In this document: positions 1,606 through 31,069 of the stretch, piece by piece
How positions within the stretch are numbered: position 1 is the first letter of the stretch
Layout of the letters: the number at the start of each line of letters is the position of its first letter
IMG/VR virus record: IMGVR_UViG_3300043419_000747
Location: 1 to 31,069 of that record
Length of the DNA: 31,069 nucleotides
From: a virus
Direction: 5' to 3' (one strand)
The notes under the pieces: model-generated
The model's database searches: none
What the model was told of the DNA's origin: nothing
Seen by the model: the letters and a program-made list of their open reading frames with translations, nothing else
Position numbers and translations under genes: made by a program

Positions 1606-3699
1606 TTATAAACGGCTCAAATCCTGAATTCTCTCGCGGGCCTCCATTGCCGAGGCAACATCCGAAGCGAGAACATAAGTCTGGCGCGGCGTGGTATTTA
1701 TATTTTGCTGAGCAACGGCGAGCGGGTTAAATTGAGGAACGTTACCACCACCACCTCCAGAACCACCCGCAGCAAAGTTACCGCCACCTCCGCCACCTCC
1801 GCCGCCTCCAGCGCTCTCATATTTTTGCGACTTTATTTTAGCAATGTTCGCTAAACCAGCCGCAACAGCCGCGGCCGCCGCGATCGCACCGCGAACAACG
1901 GAGGTTGGATCACCGGGTATAACCTGAGAAGCGTAAGCCGCAACCCCGCTTTGATATGTTTGAACGGCCGCTAAACCAATTTGTAACGCCTTGTTACGCT
2001 CGAAGGAACGTTTACGCGCCGCCTCACTTTTACCAGAAAACGCCTCATTCAACGAGAGTAAAGCCGAAAGGCCGTCCGTTGTCGTTTTCGTGACCATTTC
2101 CGACGTTTTAACAAAACCGTCTAGTTTTTCCTGTTGGCTCTTTTCGTCGGCCGCTTTCTCGGCGTTTCTAAATTCCTGGTTTACGGCGGCAATGGCCTCG
2201 TTTTGTTGGCGTATTAACTCAGCCTCTAAAATTGCATTTTCGCCAATTACTAAAAATTTATTTTCGAATTCGGCGTTTATAGCGTCGATTTCTGTTTGCC
2301 TTTTGGCTTCATTCGCTGATAGCTTTCGTAATTCAATTTCCTGTTCAACCTGAAATAACAGATCGGCGTTTTTAATCCTTTCCTCGTTAGCCTTTAATTG
2401 GTTGGCTCGCTCGGCCTCGAGTAGTTTTAAATCGGCCGCTTCCTGGGCTGCGATTTCCTCAGCCGTAAATTTGTCGCGTATCGTTTGGCGATCTAAAAAC
2501 CTTTGTTCTTCTAATTGATTAACGAGATCTTGATTTTTTCCCGCCTTTTCAATTAACTGTTGGTATTTTAACTCGACTTGTCTTAGCTCGCGATCCTCAG
2601 CCGACAACGAATTTTGGTAACGAGTTTCCTCGGCTTGCTTAATCGCGTCGGTAACTTCGGCTTCGCGTTGTTTCTTTAATTCAGCTCGGCGCTGGGCTTC
2701 CTGAGCGGCCTTTTCGGCGGCGGCTTTTGCCGCGTCCTCGGCTTTTTTTGCGGCATCCTCGCGAACCTTTGCGATTTCCGAAGCTTCATTTTCAACCGCC
2801 TTAATTGAAATTTCAGTATTGGCAGCCCATAATTTTTGACGGGCGTCTATTTGCTCTTTTGTTAGAACAACGCCTTTCTTTTCGAGGGCGTTTATTTCGT
2901 TAATTAGTTTCTCGTTATCCGCAACCTGTTTTTCCTGAAACTGTTTGTTTACCGCGGCAACGTCGGCGCCTGTTTTTTGAGCGTTGGCAACGGCCAAACG
3001 TCGGGCGTTATCTAAAACCTTTTGTTTATCCTCGAGGTTTCCGATAGCGCTATCGATTGCATTTGCCGCGGCGACTGTCGTTAAACCTATCGCGTCTGTA
3101 AAACCTGTAATTGCATCTTTCACGAAACCAATAACATTTCCGATAGCCTCGAATGCTATTCCAACGCCCGGAATGATGTTCGCTAGTTTATCGAAATTTG
3201 TTACTATTAACGCGATTACGCCACCAATTAAAAAAATGGGGTTCGTTAATAACGCTTTCCCCAGGTTTAAAACAGATTTTGTAAAAGCTCCCGAACCCTC
3301 AGTCGCTCCAGAAAAGTTAAGCCCTTTAATGTTTTTCGCTAGCCCGTTAATGCTATCGGAGGCGCCCTCAAAATCTAGCGATCCGAGTCGGCTCTGTAAA
3401 TTCCTGAGGTTATTCCCAGCGCTCTCGAATGCCGGGCCCGCGTTGGCTCCGATTTCCTCGTTAAAATCTTTTTGGGCGTCTTTTAATTGCTCGAGCCTCG
3501 TTTTTAACGCTAGGTATTCGTCCGAGGTTTTGGGAAGCGTTGTCGTTTGGAGCTCATTTGTAAGCTCGCGAATTTGCGTTTTAAAATTCTTTGCTGCGTC
3601 GCCCGCCTTGTTAACCTGGTTCCCTAACTTGTCAATGTTAGTGATCGCCCCCTCGCTGTCGGCGGTTACGGTAATAAGTATGTTTGAATTCTCAGCCAT
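1606..3699 (-). CDS. Tail tape measure protein
   Basis: A 697-residue protein with a long helical, Ala/Glu/Lys/Gln-rich body (about residues 220-560, with runs such as AAEKAAQEAQRRAELKKQRE) and a hydrophobic stretch at about 153-168 (NPIFLIGGVIALIVTN). The Gly-rich C-terminal segment contains poly-Gly runs, followed by a conserved-looking tail (TYVLASDVASAMEARERI). Tape measures run inside the tail tube and set its length; at about 0.15 nm per residue this would suggest a tail near 105 nm. The N-terminus (MAENSNILITVTADSEGA) is of the kind I associate with Bacteroidota phage tape measures. It overlaps the small membrane gene upstream by 8 bases. In most siphophages the tape measure follows the chaperone; here two large tail genes and the neck gene lie between them. 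Confidence 0.88.
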   Translation of the reverse strand: MAENSNILITVTADSEGAITNIDKLGNQVNKAGDAAKNFKTQIRELTNELQTTTLPKTSDEYLALKTRLEQLKDAQKDFNEEIGANAGPAFESAGNNLRNLQSRLGSLDFEGASDSINGLAKNIKGLNFSGATEGSGAFTKSVLNLGKALLTNPIFLIGGVIALIVTNFDKLANIIPGVGIAFEAIGNVIGFVKDAITGFTDAIGLTTVAAANAIDSAIGNLEDKQKVLDNARRLAVANAQKTGADVAAVNKQFQEKQVADNEKLINEINALEKKGVVLTKEQIDARQKLWAANTEISIKAVENEASEIAKVREDAAKKAEDAAKAAAEKAAQEAQRRAELKKQREAEVTDAIKQAEETRYQNSLSAEDRELRQVELKYQQLIEKAGKNQDLVNQLEEQRFLDRQTIRDKFTAEEIAAQEAADLKLLEAERANQLKANEERIKNADLLFQVEQEIELRKLSANEAKRQTEIDAINAEFENKFLVIGENAILEAELIRQQNEAIAAVNQEFRNAEKAADEKSQQEKLDGFVKTSEMVTKTTTDGLSALLSLNEAFSGKSEAARKRSFERNKALQIGLAAVQTYQSGVAAYASQVIPGDPTSVVRGAIAAAAAVAAGLANIAKIKSQKYESAGGGGGGGGGGNFAAGGSGGGGGNVPQFNPLAVAQQNINTTPRQTYVLASDVASAMEARERIQDLSRL

Positions 3700-3871
3700 T
3701 GAACCATTTAAAAATTAAGTAAGCAACAAAACCCCACCAAAGAACAAACGAGCCGTATTTAAAGCCCCAAAATGCCCACAGCCTCACGCCATATAAACGG
3801 CGAGAGGGTTGTTTTACGCGAATGCCTAATTTTAAAAGGCTGAGGGCTGGGCTAATTGTATTTAATTTCAT
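3692..3871 (-). CDS. Small membrane protein, 59 residues
   Basis: The reading frame extends further upstream, but the start at 3871 is preferred because its ATG overlaps the TGA of the preceding tail gene in an ATGA junction, typical of coupled translation. The protein has a basic N-terminal half (KLGIRVKQPSRRLYGVRLWA) and a C-terminal hydrophobic, Trp-rich helix (SFVLWWGFVAYLIFKWF). It overlaps the tape measure start by 8 bases. A similar small membrane gene beside a tape measure could assist tail assembly or membrane passage, but I do not recognise the family and give no function. Confidence 0.65.
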   Translation of the reverse strand: MKLNTISPALSLLKLGIRVKQPSRRLYGVRLWAFWGFKYGSFVLWWGFVAYLIFKWFNG

Positions 3872-6800
3872 TTTCTGTATTGTGTATAGTTCAAACTCAA
3901 AACACATTGAACCGTTGAATAAGGGAAACCCGTTCCGGTTGCTGTAACTGAAAATCTATGGGTTCCACTAAACACGCCAACGCCTGGAGTTATTATCAAC
4001 CCGGTTAAATTGTTTGTCGTGTTTAAAACGGTAATGGCACTCGCTGAGGCAACGCCTCCAATCTTTTCGAGGTAAACATTGAAAACGGCCGTGTAATGTT
4101 CGTCGCTGTTTGGATCGTAAACCGTCAAATTACCGATAACGTTCCACGTTGTATCGTCTGGCAGCGAGAGCCATTTGCTATCGATTCCCTCAGTTGTTAA
4201 ATAAATTGTATCGCCGGAGGCCGATAATCCGTCTTTCGAATGCTGAATAATTACGCCCCATTGGCTCGCGCCCTGAGTGTTCGCCGGGTTGTCGGAAACA
4301 TACCCGCCGCCCAGGTGCAAACCTGGAACCGTCGAAACAACCGATTTCCCTAACAAGGCCGCGCCCCTTTGCTCGCCAATTAACTCGAGATTTTCGCCGA
4401 TCGCCAACGTTGGGTTATTGTTTTCGTCAACGTTTATAGTACGGCCCGCGGTTACGCTATTAATGTTGCCCGCCACGTTTACATTGGTTCCTGTAATGAG
4501 CTGTTTGGTTTGTAACTGAAAAGGGTTATTAATTCCGTTGTAATAAATTCCCTCGGTTATAAAACCCTGTAATATATCCGGCGGCTGAATTCCCGAACAT
4601 TCATTAGTTACCGAATTCCACGTATAACCGTAACGCTCGCAACAGGTTTGATTTCCTGGAGCCGGATCGCCGTTAGCGTCAACGAATAAAACCACGTCGT
4701 TAGTGTCGAGGCCAACGGGCGTAACCTCGCAGTCTGGAATCGGAGTAACTATTTTCAACAGTTTTACTTTCGTGCTCTCAAAAGCTCCGTATTTATAATC
4801 GGAAATTTCGAGGATCCTCCAGTAAGAATCTTTAATAAAAATTTTGGCTGCAAAATCCACGGGCGTTATATCTGTGATATCGATCGTAAAAAACGCCTCC
4901 ATTATTCGAGCGTCGGGCGAATAAATTTCATTTAAGTAATCGCGCCAGTATAAATTGAAAAGAGTAAAAAACGGTTTCGAGGTAACATTGAATAAAGGAA
5001 CCTCAGGCGCCCAGTTTAAATCGAAATCGGAAACCGTCGGGATCATTGCGCTGTAATGGCTCAAAGCTGGAGCGTAATAACTGCCAAAGGTTCCGTTTTG
5101 CTCCATTTGCTGAATGAAAACAGTATGTGAGAAAAACAAGGCTCGAGGGCCTGGAGCTATAAACGAGCCATTTGTATCTAAAAATTTCGGAATGATTGCC
5201 GAGCTACTCGCTGAAACAAATTGACTCGGCGTTGACTGAGTTACTAGTTTAACGTCTAGTTTACCCGTTGCGAATTGCGTCTGTTCAATGTCTGGGTTAA
5301 CCGTATAACCCTCAATTTTTAAATCGCCATAACTACGCCCCGCATTTACATAAAGTTTACTAGCCCCGTCGCTTCCGGCCGTATAACTAAAATACATTTC
5401 GGCCTTTTGAATATCGGCAGTTGAATATAAAACAACATCCTTTCCTAAGTCTAATTTATTCGTCCAGTCATAAGTATTCCCGGAACCTATAAACTCGCTC
5501 ATTGTTTTAAAAATTAAACGCTTTGGCAAACTCGGGTGAGCAACAACCGCGAGGTTGAACATTTTAATTACGTCGTTCACGAAATCAATTTGCTTCATGT
5601 CCGGAGCGTTCGCGCTCCAGTCAACGCCTAAGCCTGTAAATAAGTTGACGGCCGTAACTATCCAACGGGTGCCATAAACCCCAGAGCCGACAATTCGAAG
5701 CGGGTTTGTAATTAAACCCGGAACTGGAGGGCAACGAAAACGCACCCTCAATTTGTCGCCCGTGTAACCTTGAAAGTTTGTAATGTTTATTAAATAAGTG
5801 AGCCCCAGAGAGTCGTTTTGTACGGCGGTTACATTACACACTCCAACATAAGTATTAACGCCCGTAACCGTGTTATCCAAATAAACCTCTATAATTTGGT
5901 TTTGAGCGGAGGTAACAGGGAATCCGGTTCCGATTACATCCAGAACCACACGAATTTGAAAGCTATAAAGCCCCGGGGCCGAAATTAAATACTCGCTAGT
6001 TGAATTGAGCCAGTAACCCCCCGGGTTCGAAATTGTGGTTGTTGGCGTCATAACAACGTTACCAATGAACAAACCTCCCGGAATAATCGGCTGGCCGATC
6101 GGAGCGTTATTCGTTAGGCGAGCCTGAAACGTTCGGTTAATAGTTGGGTTCGTTGTAACCTTTATGTCGATCGAATTGAGCCACGGCATCCAAACCGAAT
6201 CGAGCGTGTTAATCAAATCGTCAGCGTCATAAGTCCAACCCGCTTCAGTAACAATTTTGTTGAAAATGTAACTCCATTTAAGAGCTGGAGTAAAGTCGCC
6301 CGCGAAAATTTGTCCTTCAAAATCTCGGCCGCTCGCAGTATTCCATTGCTGCCCACGGTCGCACATTGCGAAAATGAAATCCAACGCCCCGGTTTCGGCG
6401 CTCTCGATAGTGCTAAAGTCAACAGTCGTAACTAAATCAACGTTTAAATCCTTCAGTTTTTTTGCGCCAATATCTCTAGCCAGATCGGAGGTTTTTCCAA
6501 AGAAAGTAACGTCGTAATCCGTCAATAAATCGCGCTGGCTAATTACTTTGTTCAGCTTCAAATAACCCTCAATAATAGGAATGTTATCGACGGCGATTTG
6601 AGCCGGAAGGCGATACAAAAAAAAGTTATCGAGCTTTGAGTAATTAGGGTTTAAAAGAGCCTCGAAAACTCGTTGGTTGTTTCCCGTGTTTGGAATTCGA
6701 AACTGGCGCGTAAAAGGCGATCGCGTTTCTAGAGCGCTCAGGTCGGTAAACGTCCAGGTTTGGGCAATAGATTCGTTTTCGTATAAATCGAGAGGGCTCG

Positions 6801-8404: not shown

Positions 8405-8938
8405 TTACTGAATGTATTTATCCGCTTTTAACCGGAGTTGTTTTAAAATTTCGCGCGTGTAAAATTCTCTAAATTCCTTCCCGCTCTTTCTCAATTCTGT
8501 CTGGAGGGCGTCCCTCATATAATAAACGCCAACGATACCTCTTTTACCGATACTCTTTGCCATTCGGCGAGCTAAACGCTGGTTATCCTCAATACTACCG
8601 TCGCCATTCGAGAATAAACCTTTACGCTCCATCCAGGCGTAAATTGGCCCAACTGGAGGCCATGTTTTCGGGTTGTCATTCGGGCGCCTTCCTTTCTCGA
8701 TTACATCGGCGTAATTGCGCGTTAGGGTATCATTCTCAGGAACGCCAAACCATTGAATAATTTTCGGCCCTCGTTTAAAATAATTGTAAGTTAATTTGTC
8801 CCGGAGGTTTCCCGTATCAACGCGGTTAACAGAACGGCCCCGAATCGTTCGGCGTTTCCTGAGGTTGGCCTGAGCGGTTTTAATGACGCGATTTCCAAAG
8901 GCGTCTAAAAGCTCTCTATTTTCAGCGAGTGAAGCCAT
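8405..8938 (-). CDS. HK97 gp10-like neck / head-tail joining protein
   Basis: A 177-residue basic protein. The central part RNYADVIEKGRRPNDNP and the following WMERKGLF resemble the HK97 gp10-like tail-completion family, in which a conserved Tyr-Ala-x-x-x-Glu-x-Gly motif precedes a Pro-rich turn. The N-terminal helix (IKTAQANLRKRRT) and C-terminal helices (REFYTREILKQLRLKADKYI) are also typical. These proteins sit at the neck and connect the head adaptor to the tail. The start shares one base with the stop of the upstream fibre-fusion gene (TAATG). In most phages this gene lies between the capsid and tail-tube genes; here it sits far from the capsid along the transcript. Confidence 0.7.
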   Translation of the reverse strand: MASLAENRELLDAFGNRVIKTAQANLRKRRTIRGRSVNRVDTGNLRDKLTYNYFKRGPKIIQWFGVPENDTLTRNYADVIEKGRRPNDNPKTWPPVGPIYAWMERKGLFSNGDGSIEDNQRLARRMAKSIGKRGIVGVYYMRDALQTELRKSGKEFREFYTREILKQLRLKADKYIQ

Positions 8939-12996: not shown

Positions 12997-13464
12997 TTAC
13001 CCCAATTCGTCCAGGTTGGCCTCACCGATCGAGTCCCTCAGGAACCGAATAATTATGTTCGCCTTGCAACTAGAGCAGCCGTAACTCTGGCCCGTCATTT
13101 TACTAAACCAATGTGAGGCGAGTTTAACCGTTTGTGCATCAATTCGGCCCTGAGTAGGTAACCCCGAAACGAAATCGCGTAACGCCTGGGTTTCATCTTC
13201 GCTCAGTTTGTAACGTCCCCATTTGTTAATTGGGCAACGAGCAAGCCCAAAATGTACCTTGAAATTCATTTTACAGCCGCATAACCGGAGCTTCTTTCGG
13301 TAATGGGTTATTTCGTTAACCTTTTCGGCTTCGGCTAGATCTTCGGCGCTGAGTTTATCGCCTAAAATGAAGGTTCCGCAACTTTGCGTTGATTCCACAA
13401 AGTGTTTGCATGTTTTACAGATTTTTAACCGCTCCGTTGCGATTCCCTGGGGTACTTGAAACAT
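12997..13464 (-). CDS. Cysteine-cluster (zinc-binding-like) protein
   Basis: A 155-residue protein with a probable metal site built from Cys16, Cys19, Cys29, Cys62, Cys64 and Cys77 (ERLKICKTCKHF; LRLCGCKMNFKV; GLARCPINKWGRY). A second Cys pair is at 130 and 133 (YGCSSCKANIIIRFLRD). The first part resembles small zinc-finger phage proteins that I have seen beside packaging and structural genes; the C-terminal part is a separate helical segment. The start lies inside the 3' end of the sigma-like gene (50-base overlap), so the two are probably translated together. Nucleic-acid binding is plausible but not shown. Confidence 0.6.
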   Translation of the reverse strand: MFQVPQGIATERLKICKTCKHFVESTQSCGTFILGDKLSAEDLAEAEKVNEITHYRKKLRLCGCKMNFKVHFGLARCPINKWGRYKLSEDETQALRDFVSGLPTQGRIDAQTVKLASHWFSKMTGQSYGCSSCKANIIIRFLRDSIGEANLDELG

Positions 13465-13993
13465 TTTTTTTAATTTTAGATATTGCGTTTTCGACTAGTT
13501 TGTAAAGTTGCTTAACCGGAATGCCTGTTTCTTTGCTGGCTTGCTTATAACTGAAATCGTCCAACATGTATAACCTCAAAATGACGGCGTCCAGCTGAGG
13601 CATCAATGAAATGTAGGCATCCAAATACTCGTTGTCGATCCTGGAACCAATCCACGGCGCCAGAGGTTCGTCCATGTGTTTTTCGCTCAGGGTTTCCCAA
13701 TTACGCGCGAACTTTCCGTATTTAACCCCAAAACGTCCGGAGGCATCAATAAACATGAGGTACAAAGAACGGTTAACGTAATAAAACAGTTTACCCTCAG
13801 CCGCCAGGCTCTCGGCTTTTGCGCGTTGGTTCTCGAGTATCTTCAACAGGGTTTCCGAAAGTAGATCGTCGCCCTTTACGCTGTCGCGCGTTAGCCCTTT
13901 GGCGAACTTTCGCCATGTAGCGTAATGGCGTTCAATCTCAATATCGAGAACATTTTTTTTCAACCCTTTGTTGATGTAGCAAAAAACTAACAT
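13415..13993 (-). CDS. Sigma-70-like RNA polymerase factor
   Basis: A 192-residue protein resembling a small two-domain sigma factor. A region-2-like helix part (FAKGLTRDSVKGDDLLSETL, then YYVNRSLYLMFIDASGRFG) is followed by a C-terminal helix-turn-helix (LRLYMLDDFSYKQASKETGI, then PVKQLYKLVENAISKIKKN) like region 4. It is the first gene of the minus-strand late arm, so it may direct the host RNA polymerase to late promoters. The ATG at 13993 overlaps the -7 element of the divergent early promoter, so early transcription and expression of this gene could interfere. No recognisable Shine-Dalgarno precedes it. Sequence similarity to true sigma factors is moderate; a DNA-binding regulator without sigma function is possible. 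Confidence 0.65.
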   Translation of the reverse strand: MLVFCYINKGLKKNVLDIEIERHYATWRKFAKGLTRDSVKGDDLLSETLLKILENQRAKAESLAAEGKLFYYVNRSLYLMFIDASGRFGVKYGKFARNWETLSEKHMDEPLAPWIGSRIDNEYLDAYISLMPQLDAVILRLYMLDDFSYKQASKETGIPVKQLYKLVENAISKIKKNVSSTPGNRNGAVKNL

Positions 13994-14027: not shown

Positions 14028-14306
14028 ATGCAAGACAAAACAATTATTAATGAGGAAACTCGACAGGTGTTAACCCCGGTTAACGAGTTTCTGGCGATTA
14101 TTCACAAGCGATACAATTCGAGCCCGAACTCGCTAGCCTCGGCGGGCTATCGCGAAGTATTAAAAATGGCCGAGGAATTTATTAAAGCCGAAAGTTCGTT
14201 TATGAACGCTGCGTTTACCGCCGGATATGAAAAGGCCTTCGAAGATCTTAAAAACCACAATAAAACAGAGCCCCAAAACGAGGGTGAGAAAGGAGGTGAC
14301 AAATGA
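14028..14306 (+). CDS. Hypothetical early protein
   Basis: A 92-residue, mostly helical protein (VLTPVNEFLAIIHKRYNSSP; YREVLKMAEEFIKAESSFMN) with a charged, disordered-looking C-terminus ending Gly-Gly-Asp-Lys. It is the first gene behind the early promoter. Its final codons GGA GGT GAC AAA TGA double as a strong Shine-Dalgarno for the next gene and overlap its ATG. The body has the GC-rich composition of the rest of the phage (one 60-base line is about 55% GC), unlike the three genes that follow. I do not recognise the family. Confidence 0.7.
   Translation: MQDKTIINEETRQVLTPVNEFLAIIHKRYNSSPNSLASAGYREVLKMAEEFIKAESSFMNAAFTAGYEKAFEDLKNHNKTEPQNEGEKGGDK
14292..14306 (+). repeat. Cassette boundary repeat 1: Shine-Dalgarno plus ATGA
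   Basis: The 15-base GGAGGTGACAAATGA holds a perfect Shine-Dalgarno core 6 bases before an ATG. It encodes the end of the upstream protein (Gly-Gly-Asp-Lys-stop) and overlaps the next start. It is the first of four copies. Confidence 0.9.
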
Positions 14307-14539
14307 AAAAGCAAACAGCAGTAGAGTGGTTAATCAAAAGCCTATCTGATAGAATGTATATCCACTGCCCTGAATTTGGGCATACCATTATTGATAAGAT
14401 TGTTGACGAAGCCAAAGCAATGGAGAAGGAGCAGATATTTCAGGCATATATAGATGTTGCCGATGATGATACTAATCGAAGGCTTTTAACAATAGCAGCC
14501 GAACAATACTACAACGAAACATACGGAGGTGACAAATGA
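14303..14539 (+). CDS. Small cassette protein A
   Basis: A 78-residue protein: MKKQTAVEWLIKSLSDRM at the start, an EAKAMEKEQIFQAYIDV helix, and AAEQYYNETYGGDK at the end. It is a paralogue of the product of 14754-14996, sharing the Lys-Gln-Thr-Ala start, the Glu-Lys-Glu-Gln-Ile helix and the Tyr-Tyr-Asn-Glu-Thr-Tyr end. I recognise the family as small hypothetical proteins common in Bacteroidota phages, function unknown. The gene is AT-rich compared with its surroundings and is bounded on both sides by the GGAGGTGACAAATGA repeat, so it behaves like an exchangeable cassette. Translation should be efficient because of the perfect Shine-Dalgarno. Confidence 0.75.
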   Translation: MKKQTAVEWLIKSLSDRMYIHCPEFGHTIIDKIVDEAKAMEKEQIFQAYIDVADDDTNRRLLTIAAEQYYNETYGGDK

Positions 14540-14541
14540 AA
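14506..14541 (+). repeat. 36-bp direct repeat, copy 1
   Basis: Identical over 36 bases to 14963-14998. It encodes the shared Tyr-Tyr-Asn-Glu-Thr-Tyr-Gly-Gly-Asp-Lys end of the two paralogous cassette genes and includes the Shine-Dalgarno and ATGA of the next gene. It is long enough to support homologous recombination that would lose or duplicate cassettes. Confidence 0.9.
14525..14539 (+). repeat. Cassette boundary repeat 2
   Basis: The second copy of GGAGGTGACAAATGA, with the Shine-Dalgarno 6 bases before the ATG at 14536. Confidence 0.9.
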
Positions 14542-14757
14542 AAAGTTAGAATTATTGAGCGCACATTCCCCGATGGTCGCGTAGAGTACACTATACAACA
14601 AAGACATTTTTTGTTTTTTTGGTGGTGGGTTGATGCTTGGGTAAATAGCGATGTTTCAACAATAGATAGTTTTTCATCATTAGCAGAGGCACAAAAAAAC
14701 TTATGCTATTTTGATGGTACAAAATACGTTGAAAAAATAATAGGGGGTGACAAATGA
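14536..14757 (+). CDS. Small cassette protein B
   Basis: A 73-residue protein: VRIIERTFPDGRVEYTIQQR at the N-terminus, an aromatic block FLFFWWWVDAW, then DSFSSLAEAQKNLCYFDGTK and a Gly-Gly-Asp-Lys end. The form suggests a small beta protein rather than a membrane protein, because the aromatic block is short. I recall similar hypothetical proteins from Bacteroidota phages; the function is unknown. It is the most AT-rich gene here (two 60-base lines are about 30-32% GC against about 55% just upstream), which suggests recent acquisition. It is flanked by boundary repeats 2 and 3. Confidence 0.75.
   Translation: MKKVRIIERTFPDGRVEYTIQQRHFLFFWWWVDAWVNSDVSTIDSFSSLAEAQKNLCYFDGTKYVEKIIGGDK
14743..14757 (+). 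repeat. Cassette boundary repeat 3 (one mismatch)
   Basis: GGGGGTGACAAATGA differs from the other copies by one base (A to G in the Shine-Dalgarno core). It still encodes Gly-Gly-Asp-Lys-stop and places the ATG at 14754. Confidence 0.9.
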
Positions 14758-14996
14758 GTAAACAAACAGCACTACAACAACTGATTGAATGGGGGAACCA
14801 AATGATTGGTGACCATCCTGCAAAAACACTTAGTTTCTATGAAGCCATAGACAAAGCGGAGGAGTTACTTGAAGTGGAGAAGGAGCAGATAATGGATGCT
14901 TTTGGTGTTGGTTGTCAAGTTGAATCAACAAGACTAATTGGATATCAAGGTATGGCAGAAAGATACTACAACGAAACATACGGAGGTGACAAATGA
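14754..14996 (+). CDS. Small cassette protein C (paralogue of A)
   Basis: An 80-residue protein: MSKQTALQQLIEWGNQMIGD at the start, a KAEELLEVEKEQIMDAFGV helix, and MAERYYNETYGGDK at the end. It shares start, central helix and end with cassette protein A, and the last 36 bases of the junction are identical. The two probably descend from one gene, by duplication or by separate acquisition of relatives. Function unknown. Confidence 0.75.
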   Translation: MSKQTALQQLIEWGNQMIGDHPAKTLSFYEAIDKAEELLEVEKEQIMDAFGVGCQVESTRLIGYQGMAERYYNETYGGDK

Positions 14997-14998
14997 AA
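14963..14998 (+). repeat. 36-bp direct repeat, copy 2
   Basis: Exact partner of 14506-14541. Recombination between the two would remove cassette proteins B and C (457 bp) while keeping the reading frame and Shine-Dalgarno of the downstream gene intact. Confidence 0.9.
14982..14996 (+). repeat. Cassette boundary repeat 4
   Basis: The last copy of GGAGGTGACAAATGA. It drives the ATG at 14993 of a gene with ordinary phage composition. Copies 1 and 4 therefore bracket a 690-bp AT-rich insert. Confidence 0.9.
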
Positions 14999-15163
14999 CC
15001 GAAAGCGTTACCAACCCTCGAGGAACTCCAGGCGAGGCGCCTCGATATTCTGGGCCTATACCCTCACGTTAAAACCGAACACGTCCGGAGTGCTTTAGCT
15101 GTGAAGCTCCAGAGCGTTAACCGCGACTTGTTTACTTTGACAAAAAACCCAATTTATAAATGA
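14993..15163 (+). CDS. Small helical hypothetical protein, 56 residues
   Basis: The translation begins MKPKALPTLEELQARRLDIL and continues with GLYPHVKTEHVRSALAVKLQ. It is preceded by the fourth strong Shine-Dalgarno, overlaps the upstream stop (ATGA) and ends in an ATGA overlap with the next gene, so its limits are well fixed. Base composition returns to the GC-richer phage norm. The helices could form a small DNA-binding unit, but this is a guess from size and charge only. Confidence 0.7.
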   Translation: MKPKALPTLEELQARRLDILGLYPHVKTEHVRSALAVKLQSVNRDLFTLTKNPIYK

Positions 15164-15417
15164 GAAAAATAGGAAAATATACCCCTGAGGAAATGAAAAT
15201 CGTCGAACCTCAGCTAATGTATTCGGAACGCCGAGCAATAATTTATAACCAGAGGGCCAAAACAGAAACAATTTACTGGCATGATATAAAACCCCGACTC
15301 GTTCGCTCGTTCAATACTTACGTCGGTTGGGGTTGTCGCCTGGATTGTTTCAACAGCCGAGAGGCTTACGATACCTGGATCGAACATTTGATAAAACTAA
15401 CCCCGAACACGAAATGA
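15160..15417 (+). CDS. Hypothetical early protein, 85 residues
   Basis: It begins MRKIGKYTPEEMKIVEPQLM and contains RAIIYNQRAKTETIYWHDIK and an aromatic, Cys-containing YVGWGCRLDCFNSREAYDTW segment. It is joined to both neighbours by ATGA overlaps, so it is part of a tightly coupled early operon. No recognised domain. Confidence 0.7.
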   Translation: MRKIGKYTPEEMKIVEPQLMYSERRAIIYNQRAKTETIYWHDIKPRLVRSFNTYVGWGCRLDCFNSREAYDTWIEHLIKLTPNTK

Positions 15418-15704
15418 AATTGAAAGGTTTAAAAATAACTTATGCAATGGGGCGAATGGAGGGCGTTCGCGATTCGATCGAGTATGAAATCGGCGATTTA
15501 GTCCTCTTGTATTCAATAGCTGAATCTTACCGAAAATTAAACCCTCATTACAAATATGAGGCTGAGATTTACAAAATAATTGAAATAAGCCCTTCAACGG
15601 ACGGCAAACATTTTGAAAAATACGGCCTCGAGCATATGAAAACAAAAAACAAAACATACTGGCACTATCCGACATTTTTAGAGCCCGCATTTCAACCAAA
15701 CTAA
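15414..15704 (+). CDS. Hypothetical early protein, 96 residues
   Basis: The start at 15414 is chosen because its ATG overlaps the upstream stop (ATGA); an earlier in-frame ATG would overlap the neighbour by about 90 bases. The protein starts MKLKGLKITYAMGRMEG and contains YEIGDLVLLYSIAESYRKLN and EAEIYKIIEISPSTDGKHFE, suggesting a small alpha/beta fold. Family not recognised. Confidence 0.7.
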   Translation: MKLKGLKITYAMGRMEGVRDSIEYEIGDLVLLYSIAESYRKLNPHYKYEAEIYKIIEISPSTDGKHFEKYGLEHMKTKNKTYWHYPTFLEPAFQPN

Positions 15705-15708
15705 ATTT

Positions 15709-15894
15709 ATGAGCAGCGATAAACTAAACCAAATTATAACCGAACATTTCGGAACCCGGGCGCTATTTTCAGCCCGAATGAAAGTCAGTCGATTTACCGC
15801 CTACCGTTGGATAAAAGAACCGGAACGAATGACGCTCAAAGATCTGGAGCGGCTGAGCGTAATAACTAAAAAACCAATTTGTGAGCTCTTATGA
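15709..15894 (+). CDS. Cro/XRE-like helix-turn-helix protein
   Basis: A 61-residue basic protein that is essentially one helix-turn-helix: NQIITEHFGTRALFSARMKV, SRFTAYRWIKEPERMTLKDL and ERLSVITKKPICELL. The last stretch (Leu-Ser-x-Ile-Thr-Lys-Lys-Pro) is typical of Cro/XRE-like DNA-binding proteins. It overlaps the start of the DnaA-like gene by 4 bases (ATGA). It probably regulates the early region; without an integrase or a divergent repressor gene, it need not mean lysogeny. Confidence 0.7.
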   Translation: MSSDKLNQIITEHFGTRALFSARMKVSRFTAYRWIKEPERMTLKDLERLSVITKKPICELL

Positions 15895-16388
15895 ACGCCC
15901 AAAACAATTTACATGAGGCCATGAAATTCGTTCCGTTACGATCTCAAAAGGCCGTTTTAACTATTCTCGGGCCGTATTTTACCCCCGAAATGTTAGTCGC
16001 CGCTGTCGATCACATTGAACGGTTCGAAACGCTGCCAATGGGCCCGGAGGAAATAACCGAAATTATTTTTAAGTTAGTGGGCGATCTAACAGAAAACCCG
16101 AACTTTCGTAAAAGTAAAACCAGAAAGGTTGAATTTGTTTTTCCCCGACAGCTCGCAATGTTCGCGATTTATACGGAAATTCCACAGTACAGCCTCCAGA
16201 CGGTGGCGAACCTGTTTACTCCGAAATACGATCACGCCACGGTCGTTCATTCGTGTAAATCAATGGAGGCCCGTTACGCTTCAAATAAAAGCTCCAGGGA
16301 AACAATTAGCGCCCTGGCTTCACTAATGGCCGAACATTCCCTTTATGGGTTTCAAAACAAGCTCGAAACAATAACTGTTATCGCGTAA
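15891..16388 (+). CDS. DnaA domain IV-like DNA-binding protein
   Basis: A 165-residue protein whose C-terminal half matches the DNA-binding domain IV of DnaA: FVFPRQLAMFAIYTEIPQYS (residues about 82-101), then SLQTVANLFTPKYDHATVVH and SCKSMEARYA. In DnaA the Asp-His-x-Thr-Val segment contacts the DnaA box. The AAA+ ATPase part is absent; the N-terminal 75 residues are an unrelated helical segment. It may recruit replication proteins to an origin without ATP control, or serve as a packaging-site binding protein, because it ends directly at the terL start (TAAATG). A perfect DnaA box lies downstream of terL at 17730-17738. Confidence 0.78.
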   Translation: MNAQNNLHEAMKFVPLRSQKAVLTILGPYFTPEMLVAAVDHIERFETLPMGPEEITEIIFKLVGDLTENPNFRKSKTRKVEFVFPRQLAMFAIYTEIPQYSLQTVANLFTPKYDHATVVHSCKSMEARYASNKSSRETISALASLMAEHSLYGFQNKLETITVIA

Positions 16389-22973: not shown

Positions 22974-23164
22974 ACATTTACAAAAATTCCGACGGTTCTT
23001 TTGATATAGTCAACACGAACCGCGTATTGTTCCACGCGAAAAACGGAACCTGTAAAGTAATTGGGCGCGTTTCCGATCAATGGCGAACGGCCTCGAAACA
23101 AGTTAAATCGCTTCCCGTGAGCGTTTATAAATTTCGCAATCTAATCGAAAAGGCCAAAATATGA
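22970..23164 (+). CDS. Hypothetical protein, 64 residues
   Basis: A basic protein that starts MNIYKNSDGSFDIVNTNRVL and contains GTCKVIGRVSDQWRTASKQV and a short C-terminal helix. Both ends overlap neighbours by 4 bases in ATGA junctions, which fixes its limits. No recognised domain. Confidence 0.65.
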   Translation: MNIYKNSDGSFDIVNTNRVLFHAKNGTCKVIGRVSDQWRTASKQVKSLPVSVYKFRNLIEKAKI

Positions 23165-23694
23165 AACGTTGCAAAGTATGTAAACAACCGTTCACGCCGA
23201 CTTATTCGACGCTTCAGGCGACATGCACGAAACCGAGCTGTTTAATTGAATGGGGCCGGATCGTTGAACGTAAAAAGAGCAAACGGGAAATTAAGGGCAT
23301 GCGCGAAAAAATAAAAAGCGTAAGCCAGTACCGCCGTGAGCTTCAAAAAGTGTTTAATGAATTTATCCGGTTGCGCGATCAAAACCAACCCTGTATTTCA
23401 TGTAATAAACCCCTGGTTGGGAAATATGACGCCGGGCACTTTTACAGCGTTGGGAGTTACCCCAATTTAAGGTTTGATGAGGATAACGTTCACGGCCAAT
23501 GTGTAGAATGTAATCAGCACAAACACGGGAACCTGTTAGAATACGCGCCCAGGTTAACCGAACGAATCGGTTTCGAACGCGCCTCCAAACTAATGACTGT
23601 CCGTCATGACCCGTTAAAACTTTCACTCCAGGAAATTAAACAGTTAACTGAACACTACAAACAAAAGGTTCGCCAATGGAAACAGAGCACATAA
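23161..23694 (+). CDS. ninG: NinG-like recombination nuclease
   Basis: A 177-residue protein of the lambda NinG (Rap) family. An N-terminal zinc-ribbon-like part (CKVCKQPFTPTYS and TCTKPSC) is followed by a Lys/Arg-rich helix, then LQKVFNEFIRLRDQNQPCIS, CNKPLVGKYDAGHFYSVGS, LRFDEDNVHGQCVECNQHKH and GNLLEY. The Cys pairs and the AGH and His-x-Gln-Cys-x-x-Cys-Asn motifs match the HNH-like metal-binding centre of the family. NinG/Rap resolves recombination intermediates, which suits the annealing protein and nuclease encoded upstream. It overlaps the preceding gene by 4 bases and the next by 19. Confidence 0.85.
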   Translation: MKRCKVCKQPFTPTYSTLQATCTKPSCLIEWGRIVERKKSKREIKGMREKIKSVSQYRRELQKVFNEFIRLRDQNQPCISCNKPLVGKYDAGHFYSVGSYPNLRFDEDNVHGQCVECNQHKHGNLLEYAPRLTERIGFERASKLMTVRHDPLKLSLQEIKQLTEHYKQKVRQWKQST

Positions 23695-29505: not shown

Positions 29506-30411
29506 TTAAAACCAGGTTCCGTAAGCGGCTATTTCGTTACCGATTCCGAACTGACAACCAGCGTAGAATTTAGCTGAGAAACGAACGTTATCCTCAGCAA
29601 ATTGGCCCATGTCCACAACCTGAATACTATTCCAGTCGCCCAAAATGTTTGTACCGAACCAAAGATTCGATTTTTGAGCCATTACGATCGTATCGTCTGG
29701 CATGCCTGGGCAAATTGCCAGCTGATAACCCAAATAAGATTTAGGCATTTCAGGGCCGCCGTAAGTGTACCAACCGTTTCCAGCCGCCGCACTTGCTTGC
29801 ATGAATGCTTCCCAAACGTTTTGAGCAATGTAAATAACTGGCTTTTCAGTTGAACGCTTAACAGCCGTTGGGCATTCAGCAACAGTCAAAGCAATTTTAG
29901 CGATTACGTTTCCGCTGTTGATCGCTACCGGAGTAGCAACGAAATTAACGCCTGAACCGCCCGCACTCATGAGAGTCAAAAGACCGTCGTATTGACCGGC
30001 TGTGGCGTTCGCACCTGTCCACAAAATTTCCTCATTCTTTGCCGCGATACCTTCCAACATGTTAGCGATCAAAACATCAACCAATGCTGGCTCGAGCTCA
30101 CCGTCTTGAACGAATGAAGCGCCCCAATCAGCTAGGAAAGTGTTTTTACAGATATTGCGCTGAACCTGGAATTTTTCCAGAGTCAAAATACGCTCGCTAA
30201 GGGTAACGGTTCCTAGAGGTGCAAAATCGCAGCTAGGAGCCTCGAAAGTGATGTTATCAACGAGTTTACGAACGACTTGTTTGTAATCAATGTTTTCCTT
30301 TACGGTTACATGTTGCAATGATTCGTTAGCCAAAAATGCGGCTTTAATGTACTGTCCCGCCGCCTGTCCGGCGAATGTGCTCGCCGGGTTAATTGTTACG
30401 TTTGTTGCCAT
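29506..30411 (-). CDS. Major capsid protein
   Basis: A 301-residue protein, the only complete copy in the window. It begins MATNVTINPASTFAGQAAGQ and contains TLEKFQVQRNICKNTFLADW, NEEILWTGANATAGQYDGLL, KPVIYIAQNVWEAFMQASAA and GYQLAICPGMPDDTIVMAQK, and ends CQFGIGNEIAAYGTWF. The central Gly-Ala-Asn/Gly-Gln-Tyr-Asp-Gly-Leu segment and the Ala-x-Lys-Ser-Asn-Leu-Trp-Phe-Gly-Thr segment suit an HK97-fold capsid. The order scaffold, capsid, tail-tube-like and an overall 300-residue size agree. It is followed by a GC hairpin. The first 67 codons are duplicated at the left edge with many silent differences. Confidence 0.85.
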   Translation of the reverse strand: MATNVTINPASTFAGQAAGQYIKAAFLANESLQHVTVKENIDYKQVVRKLVDNITFEAPSCDFAPLGTVTLSERILTLEKFQVQRNICKNTFLADWGASFVQDGELEPALVDVLIANMLEGIAAKNEEILWTGANATAGQYDGLLTLMSAGGSGVNFVATPVAINSGNVIAKIALTVAECPTAVKRSTEKPVIYIAQNVWEAFMQASAAAGNGWYTYGGPEMPKSYLGYQLAICPGMPDDTIVMAQKSNLWFGTNILGDWNSIQVVDMGQFAEDNVRFSAKFYAGCQFGIGNEIAAYGTWF

Positions 30412-31069
30412 TTTAAAATAAATTATTTAATGTTTTCGATATTTTTTAAAATTCTCTCTTTCAATGTCATTTGTGAAAACGCCTTTTCTTTTTTATCAGC
30501 GCCCATTGCAACGCGCTTCACTTCCTTAACCGAAGCCGCGGCGGGTTGCTTTTTGAGTGAGCTCAATTCTGTTTTGGTGTTTTTCAAAACAGACGAAAGC
30601 TGTTCGATTTTATCCTCAGCGGTTGTAAGCTCAGCGCTTAGGGTTGCGTTCTGGCCCTCGAGTGAAGCCACACGCTCTGTCAATTTTTCAATCGCGCCCA
30701 ACAAATCTTCGGAACTCATTTCGGTTTCCTCTAATTCTGGGAGGCCCATTTCGGCGACCATGCCCATTTCGTTTACGTCGATAAACTCGCCAGTCTCAAG
30801 CTCGTAACGGCCCTGAGCGGCTGGGACTTTGTTTCCTTCCTCGTCCTTAATGTAAACATCGACGCCAATAGCAAAAGCCGGAGCGCTTGTATAAATTGGC
30901 GTTCCGTCCTTTAGTTTACCCTCTGTTTCTAGGTTAACCTCGGTTTCTAAATTGATTCCGTAGGCTTTCGGATCAACGGCGAACTTTTCAAAAATCGCCT
31001 TTATTGAATTTTTCAAACTTGACATTTTGCGAATTATTTACAGAAAAAACGGAATGGCTAAAAATTTCC
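30209..31069. repeat. Right copy of imperfect terminal direct repeat
   Basis: Matches 1-861 at a constant offset with about 40 substitutions and no indels. In this copy the capsid gene is complete, so the right end carries the intact form of both duplicated genes. Confidence 0.95.
30423..31025 (-). CDS. Head scaffolding-like protein (right copy)
   Basis: The second copy of the 200-residue scaffold-like protein at 215-817, with the same coiled coil and basic C-terminus. It differs at two residues: it has Ile and Pro where the left copy has Thr and Ser (VYIKDEEGNKVPAAQGRYE). About 21 base differences fall in this gene, nearly all silent. The 11-base gap before the capsid start is unchanged. 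On a closed circle this and the left copy represent one locus, unless the duplication is real. Confidence 0.7.
   Translation of the reverse strand: MSSLKNSIKAIFEKFAVDPKAYGINLETEVNLETEGKLKDGTPIYTSAPAFAIGVDVYIKDEEGNKVPAAQGRYELETGEFIDVNEMGMVAEMGLPELEETEMSSEDLLGAIEKLTERVASLEGQNATLSAELTTAEDKIEQLSSVLKNTKTELSSLKKQPAAASVKEVKRVAMGADKKEKAFSQMTLKERILKNIENIK

Follow-up and report, generated by a model that had tools for sequence, protein, structure and literature searches.

A repeated Shine-Dalgarno-bearing joint between small early genes of a probable Bacteroidota phage

The closest precedent for the locus described here is the nin region of lambdoid phages together with phage boundary sequences. The passages of PMC8022706 that cite Kroger and Hobom 1982 describe the lambdoid nin region as packed small genes with ATGA overlaps, and those of PMC3029335 that cite Susskind and Botstein 1978 and Clark et al. 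2001 describe short conserved boundary sequences as proposed exchange sites. Cluster K mycobacteriophages carry start-associated repeats (SAS) with a Shine-Dalgarno (SD) core and the consensus GGGATAGGAGCCC (PMC3203893). Bacteroidia sequester the 16S tail, and ribosomes of the phylum are reported to ignore SDs; Flavobacteriales genomes typically contain a single gene, rpsU, whose SD is exceptional, and the extended rpsU SD of Bacteroidia forms a helix of 9-13 bp at −14 to −21 kcal/mol (PMC9976891). In a survey of 720 genomes, Bacteroidetes were the sole group in which the SD apparently served no role in first initiation or in reinitiation (PMC6728339).

Here we analyze a virus record of 31,069 bases (GC 45.0%), the whole of which we call the window. 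Its early operon contains an array of small genes joined by a short repeat (the seam). Like the nin region and boundary sequences as given in the cited passages, the array consists of small, packed, ATGA-linked early genes with variable content and conserved border sequences, and its content changes between relatives with breakpoints at gene borders. Unlike the nin region, cassette genes A-D gave nothing significant in a Pfam and PHROGs search, no nin homology was found, and the NinG/Rap gene lies elsewhere in the window (23161-23694). In addition, one precise SD-bearing seam is common to some 50 unrelated upstream families in phages whose presumed hosts hardly use SDs, and near-identical cassettes are swapped between phages of different size.

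The seam shares with SAS a short directional repeat with an SD core just upstream of the starts of different genes (non-structural genes in the case of SAS). However, SAS mostly follow gaps of >50 bp and lie outside the coding tail of the upstream gene, whereas the seam is another sequence, located inside the upstream gene, with an ATGA overlap and a direct rRNA match. As at rpsU, a very strong SD occurs in an SD-avoiding group; seam 1 (13 nt, −22.1 kcal/mol) is near the rpsU range and seams 2-4 pair over ~8 nt at ~−15 kcal/mol, values obtained with an assumed 16S tail and another energy program. Unlike rpsU, the seams are found in a phage operon, at gene overlaps and in many copies, and a search of 17 records found no bS21 gene. 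Integron cassettes are likewise small promoterless genes exchanged singly in arrays, but the seams have no short-range or attC-like inverted repeat, and insertion with inverted repeats at the seams was rejected, as none were found there. The scanned window proteins, a set that omits some small ORFs, gave no integrase match. A literature search with most subscription journals outside its reach found no paper describing the seam.

Four seams in the early operon

The TerL of the window best matches those of Flavobacterium phage 11b (46%) and Cellulophaga phi10:1 (42%), with weaker matches to Polaribacter and Bacteroides phages, which makes a Bacteroidota host likely, though not proven; the host and its 16S tail are assumed throughout. 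The window ends (1-861 and 30209-31069) match over 861 bp at 95.4% identity, as if strain variants of a ~30.2-kb genome, circular or terminally redundant, overlapped there; because the ends appear to overlap, gene 215-817 is counted twice.

The operon has the order A-B-C-D-E-F-G-H-I-TerL and is divergent from a sigma-factor-like gene (13415-13993). Joints A/B, B/C, C/D and D/E are seams, and E/F, F/G and H/I are ATGA overlaps without an SD.

Gene A, 14028-14306, + strand: 92 aa; conserved left anchor of the array; GGDK tail only when a seam follows
Gene B, 14303-14539, + strand: 78 aa cassette; commonest cassette family (YYNETYGGDK); predicted three-helix protein
Gene C, 14536-14757, + strand: 73 aa cassette; homologues elsewhere without GGDK tail and without seam
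Gene D, 14754-14996, + strand: 80 aa cassette; homologue of B
Gene E, 14993-15163, + strand: 56 aa; directly after A, overlapping A, in relatives without the array
Gene F, 15160-15417, + strand: 85 aa cassette with ATGA joints without SD; present or absent among relatives
Gene G, 15414-15704, + strand: 96 aa; insert between F and H without SD; lacking in L004
Gene H, 15709-15894, + strand: 61 aa; weak HTH match; conserved right anchor; SD only when the left gene ends in a seam
Seam 1, 14292-14306, + strand: GGAGGTGACAAATGA; 13-nt match to the assumed 16S tail (AGAAAGGAGGTGA); −22.1 kcal/mol
Seam 2, 14525-14539, + strand: GGAGGTGACAAATGA; −15.2 kcal/mol
Seam 3, 14743-14757, + strand: GGGGGTGACAAATGA, one mismatch; −15.0 kcal/mol
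Seam 4, 14982-14996, + strand: GGAGGTGACAAATGA; −15.2 kcal/mol

A preliminary description, made from the letters of the window, had reported four copies of this repeat, once with one mismatch, each combining a Gly-Gly-Asp-Lys-stop end, an SD six bases from the next ATG and an ATGA overlap. We recovered three exact copies and the one-mismatch copy, and at all four the seam forms the Gly-Gly-Asp-Lys-stop end of its upstream gene (A, B, C or D) and reads GGAGG, then 6 nt, then the ATG of the next gene, with ATGA as the overlap. Allowing up to 3 mismatches to GGAGGTGACAAATGA, the window contains 6 matches (0.59 expected), a number reached in no shuffle. The same description gave about 55% GC for the first early gene, which is incorrect, as gene A has 44.1%; the GC contents of B, C and D are 38.4, 34.7 and 39.9%.

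Genes B and D are homologous (44-nt ends 93% identical, proteins 35-45% identical), so the copies following them are partly a matter of paralogy. A and C are unrelated to B/D, yet carry the same seam. The predicted model of gene B has three helices (mean pLDDT 89); the third stops at residue 74, short of the GGDK tail. This model found no convincing match in the PDB, and a literature search found no paper on the YYNETYG motif. Beyond the array, gene I (15891-16388) encodes a DnaA C-terminal domain, and 35-47% identical versions replace it in phages with a terminase ~90% identical, a predicted replication-initiator swap adjoining the array.

Gene content and exchange at ATGA joints

We compared loci selected by a terminase search (80 loci) and a sigma search (27, partly the same contigs). 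The comparison sequences are nearly all metagenome contigs, of which related ones do not count as independent, and several tests share loci and are uncorrected. The preliminary description had taken the junctions for recombination seams and had proposed comparing the locus in related phages. In relatives with TerL 88-99% identical, that comparison found cassettes gained and lost at these joints; genes are gained, lost and re-paired exactly there, as suggested, but the repeat itself is not required, as SD-less ATGA joints are exchanged too.

The A-to-H stretch differs in nearly every such relative, and the differences start and stop at ATGA overlaps. A is directly followed by E, which starts inside A, in eight contigs (L006, L007, L011, L021-L023, L026, L027); it is followed by H without a seam in L010/L024 and via a single seam in L016. 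L008 has three seams with other genes between them, and L009 has one other gene. Between L026 and L027 the difference is one 206-bp cassette between E and H, joined exactly at ATGA, and the nearest 30-100 bp of its flanks are 90-97% identical. Internal ends of DNA alignments fall ≤6 bp from an ATGA joint in 26% of cases vs 4% of random points. Where cassettes are lacking (L006, L027), E (14993-15163 in the window) starts inside the end of A (14028-14306) in another frame; where they are present, A and E each have their own copy of the overlap stretch. Gain or loss at A/E therefore entails making or losing a small duplication.

An SD precedes gene H in the five phages in which its left gene ends in a seam (L008, L009, L011, L016, L026) but not in eleven others, the window among them; for gene E the counts are three phages with an SD and nine without. 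The SD is part of the cassette. The GGDK tail comes with the joint, since homologues of gene C elsewhere lack both the tail and the seam; other homologues of C stand behind other seam genes in L153, L266 and L267.

Some gene C homologues have other surroundings. In L210 (2485-2733) the homologue has a copy of TTTAAATCAGAGTAAGATGAAA, a start-site repeat unlike the seam, on each side, which raises the possibility that other phage lineages use seams of their own. Those in L204 (695-952), L205 (1609-1866), L208 (2414-2671) and L216 (2470-2727) lie between the inverted repeats GTTAGTGGCTGGTGC and GCACTTGCCACTAAC; the right-hand repeat also occurs in L206, L207 and L209, and right after CACTAAC the sequence differs from contig to contig. 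Upstream there is hairpin-forming sequence, and these homologues may be attC-like gene cassettes in phage contigs.

Cassettes are common to different phages and are re-paired in many combinations with the joint intact. The 164 junctions contain 106 gene families in 126 ordered pairs, and the B/D family alone has 45 different families downstream. In 54 pairs of junctions the same downstream gene follows different upstream families, and 59 show the reverse, with 15-45% identity just past the joint. One 132-bp cassette is 99-100% identical in L103/L092 (31 and 18 kb), L267 (5 kb) and L257/L278 (69 and 86 kb), three settings in which its neighbours on either side differ, and the last 98 bp of window gene B are identical in L120, there before another gene.

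Exchange takes place at ATGA joints, more at seam joints among those compared, and the SD is under nucleotide constraint. Among terminase- or sigma-selected loci, which were not chosen by the seam, strong-SD joints had switched partner in 30 of 33 cases and SD-less joints in 89 of 254; the p-value of this comparison exaggerates the difference because the SD-less set is mixed, with pairs of core genes and, probably, spurious ORFs, and the related contigs are interdependent. The higher rate at strong-SD joints and the near-identical cassettes in different settings, which suggest frequent exchange, speak against the reading that the joints are not recombination sites, and that random illegitimate exchange leaves survivors with intact stop/start overlaps while the SD is kept for translation alone. 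We regard that reading as a real possibility, if short of probable. F and G have no SD and are inserted at ATGA as precisely as the seam cassettes, which fits it; we take exchange to be a property of the ATGA-linked operon, with the SD seam as its best-defined joint rather than a requirement. Seam variants are also only weakly shared within a contig (p = 0.03), and departures from the consensus are less frequent in the SD core (8/118) than in the spacer (29/118, p = 0.0003), as expected if rRNA pairing is what is conserved.

Constraint, Shine-Dalgarno strength and distribution of the seam

It seems to be the DNA of the joint, and not the peptide tail, that is kept. In 59 upstream families without detectable similarity that end in Gly-Gly-x-x at an ATGA overlap, the two glycine codons are GGA (54/59) and GGT (56/59), against a background usage in those genes of 35% and 39%, and this codon use places the constraint on DNA rather than protein. 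Four of five departures at A are to G, which is still able to pair with U.

SD energies were scored against an assumed host 16S tail, AUCACCUCCUUUCU. Of the 45 starts in the window, those at the four seams have the strongest SDs, followed by −12.8 and −9.6 kcal/mol, and the rarity of strong SDs elsewhere in the window that the preliminary description had noted is confirmed (seams −15.0 to −22.1 kcal/mol, median of the 45 starts −1.1 kcal/mol). Outside the array the window has just one further strong SD, GAGGAGGT (−12.8 kcal/mol), which precedes gene 8405-8938 on the − strand, a gene with a weak match to a neck or tail-completion protein. Across the terminase-chosen loci and the window, the SD energy of 274 ATGA overlaps is bimodal, with 39 at ≤ −10 and 226 above −6 kcal/mol, cut-offs that were picked on sight of the distribution. 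The data support strong SDs being exceptional in these phage genomes. Seams seldom have A at −3 and −6, positions at which A is reported to aid initiation in F. johnsoniae, and A at −12 and −13 is mostly kept. We rejected a phage-encoded bS21 that would free the anti-SD, as a search of the window and of 16 records that are related or carry cassettes (17 in total) found no bS21 gene.

In 1.19 Mb of fetched loci, a set that includes loci picked through the cassette family, we counted 72 distinct sites of the 15-mer and no site of its reversed control. ATGA follows exactly three bases on at 112 of 135 GGAGGTGA sites. A scan of viral contigs with the 18-mer AAAGGAGGTGACAAATGA, which is independent of protein family, yielded 67 stretches. 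In 296 Bacteroidota genomes we found four seam copies: the L199 phage contig, one real joint (L200) and two without a gene joint. A search of genome contigs for the B/D family returned the same single locus, L199, a phage contig in a Flavobacteriaceae MAG. At 3690-4389, L199 appears to switch inside the terminase gene to sequence resembling a DegQ/HtrA-type protease, as judged by eye, and the contig is probably chimeric because of this apparent switch. Among sequenced phages, a 35-nt seam query gave weak matches, none in a phage named for a Bacteroidota host, and the array region gave no DNA match.

Outside the previously fetched loci, the 18-mer lies between two ORFs (≥30 codons) in 25 of 37 matches in SD-poor contigs and in 0 of 13 in SD-rich contigs, which argues against a recent arrival of the cassettes from phages whose hosts use SDs, such as Firmicutes. 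Their strong SDs and GC below the rest of the genome would suit such an origin; against it, cassette D has no match among 50,697 phage records, another B/D family member has matches of E 0.1 or worse, mostly to Flavobacterium phages, and cassettes are present in many SD-poor phages. On these grounds we rejected import, which we consider very unlikely. Hardly credible is that the repeats reflect duplication of one family with a C-terminus conserved as protein: B and D are homologues with nearly identical ends and theirs is the largest family at seams, but unrelated A and C and some 50 other families bear the seam, gene C homologues elsewhere lack the tail, the glycine codons are nearly fixed and the tail is not helical in the predicted fold of B, so paralogy alone was rejected.

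A probable cassette array with a standard joint

We think it likely that the early operon of this tailed phage, probably of Bacteroidota, is an array of swappable small-gene cassettes with a standard joint, in which exchange is perhaps aided by the seam. A cassette would run from its own ATGA to just before the next ATGA, and its last bases, GGAGGTGACAA, would serve as the standard joint, closing its own frame and giving an SD and an overlapping start to the next gene. Paired repeated seams may aid phage recombination, perhaps via the YqaJ/RecE-like exonuclease and the NinG/Rap junction nuclease, the recombination genes found in the window. Recombinants would survive since the joint keeps the gene chain translated, by termination-reinitiation, direct SD pairing or both. 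Three findings count against seam-aided exchange: SD-less ATGA joints of the same operon are exchanged as cleanly, no annealing protein was identified in the window, and seam sharing within a contig is weak. Stretches of 11-15 bp are also short for RecA-type recombination.

A broader suggestion, which we put forward tentatively and with some doubt, is that Bacteroidota phages have in common a pool of small genes whose plug-in joint serves for exchange as well as for ribosome binding and is read by a mode of translation that their hosts barely use. Candidates for this mode would be reinitiation assisted by pairing of the SD, or translation by ribosomes whose anti-SD is exposed, for instance those depleted of bS21.

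A boundary sequence found at scale, together with near-identical cassette swaps, makes the boundary model directly testable. The seams offer a naturally occurring collection of strong SDs in a phylum that reportedly makes no use of them (PMC9976891, PMC6728339), and the joint provides a handle for finding the accessory genes of Bacteroidota phages.
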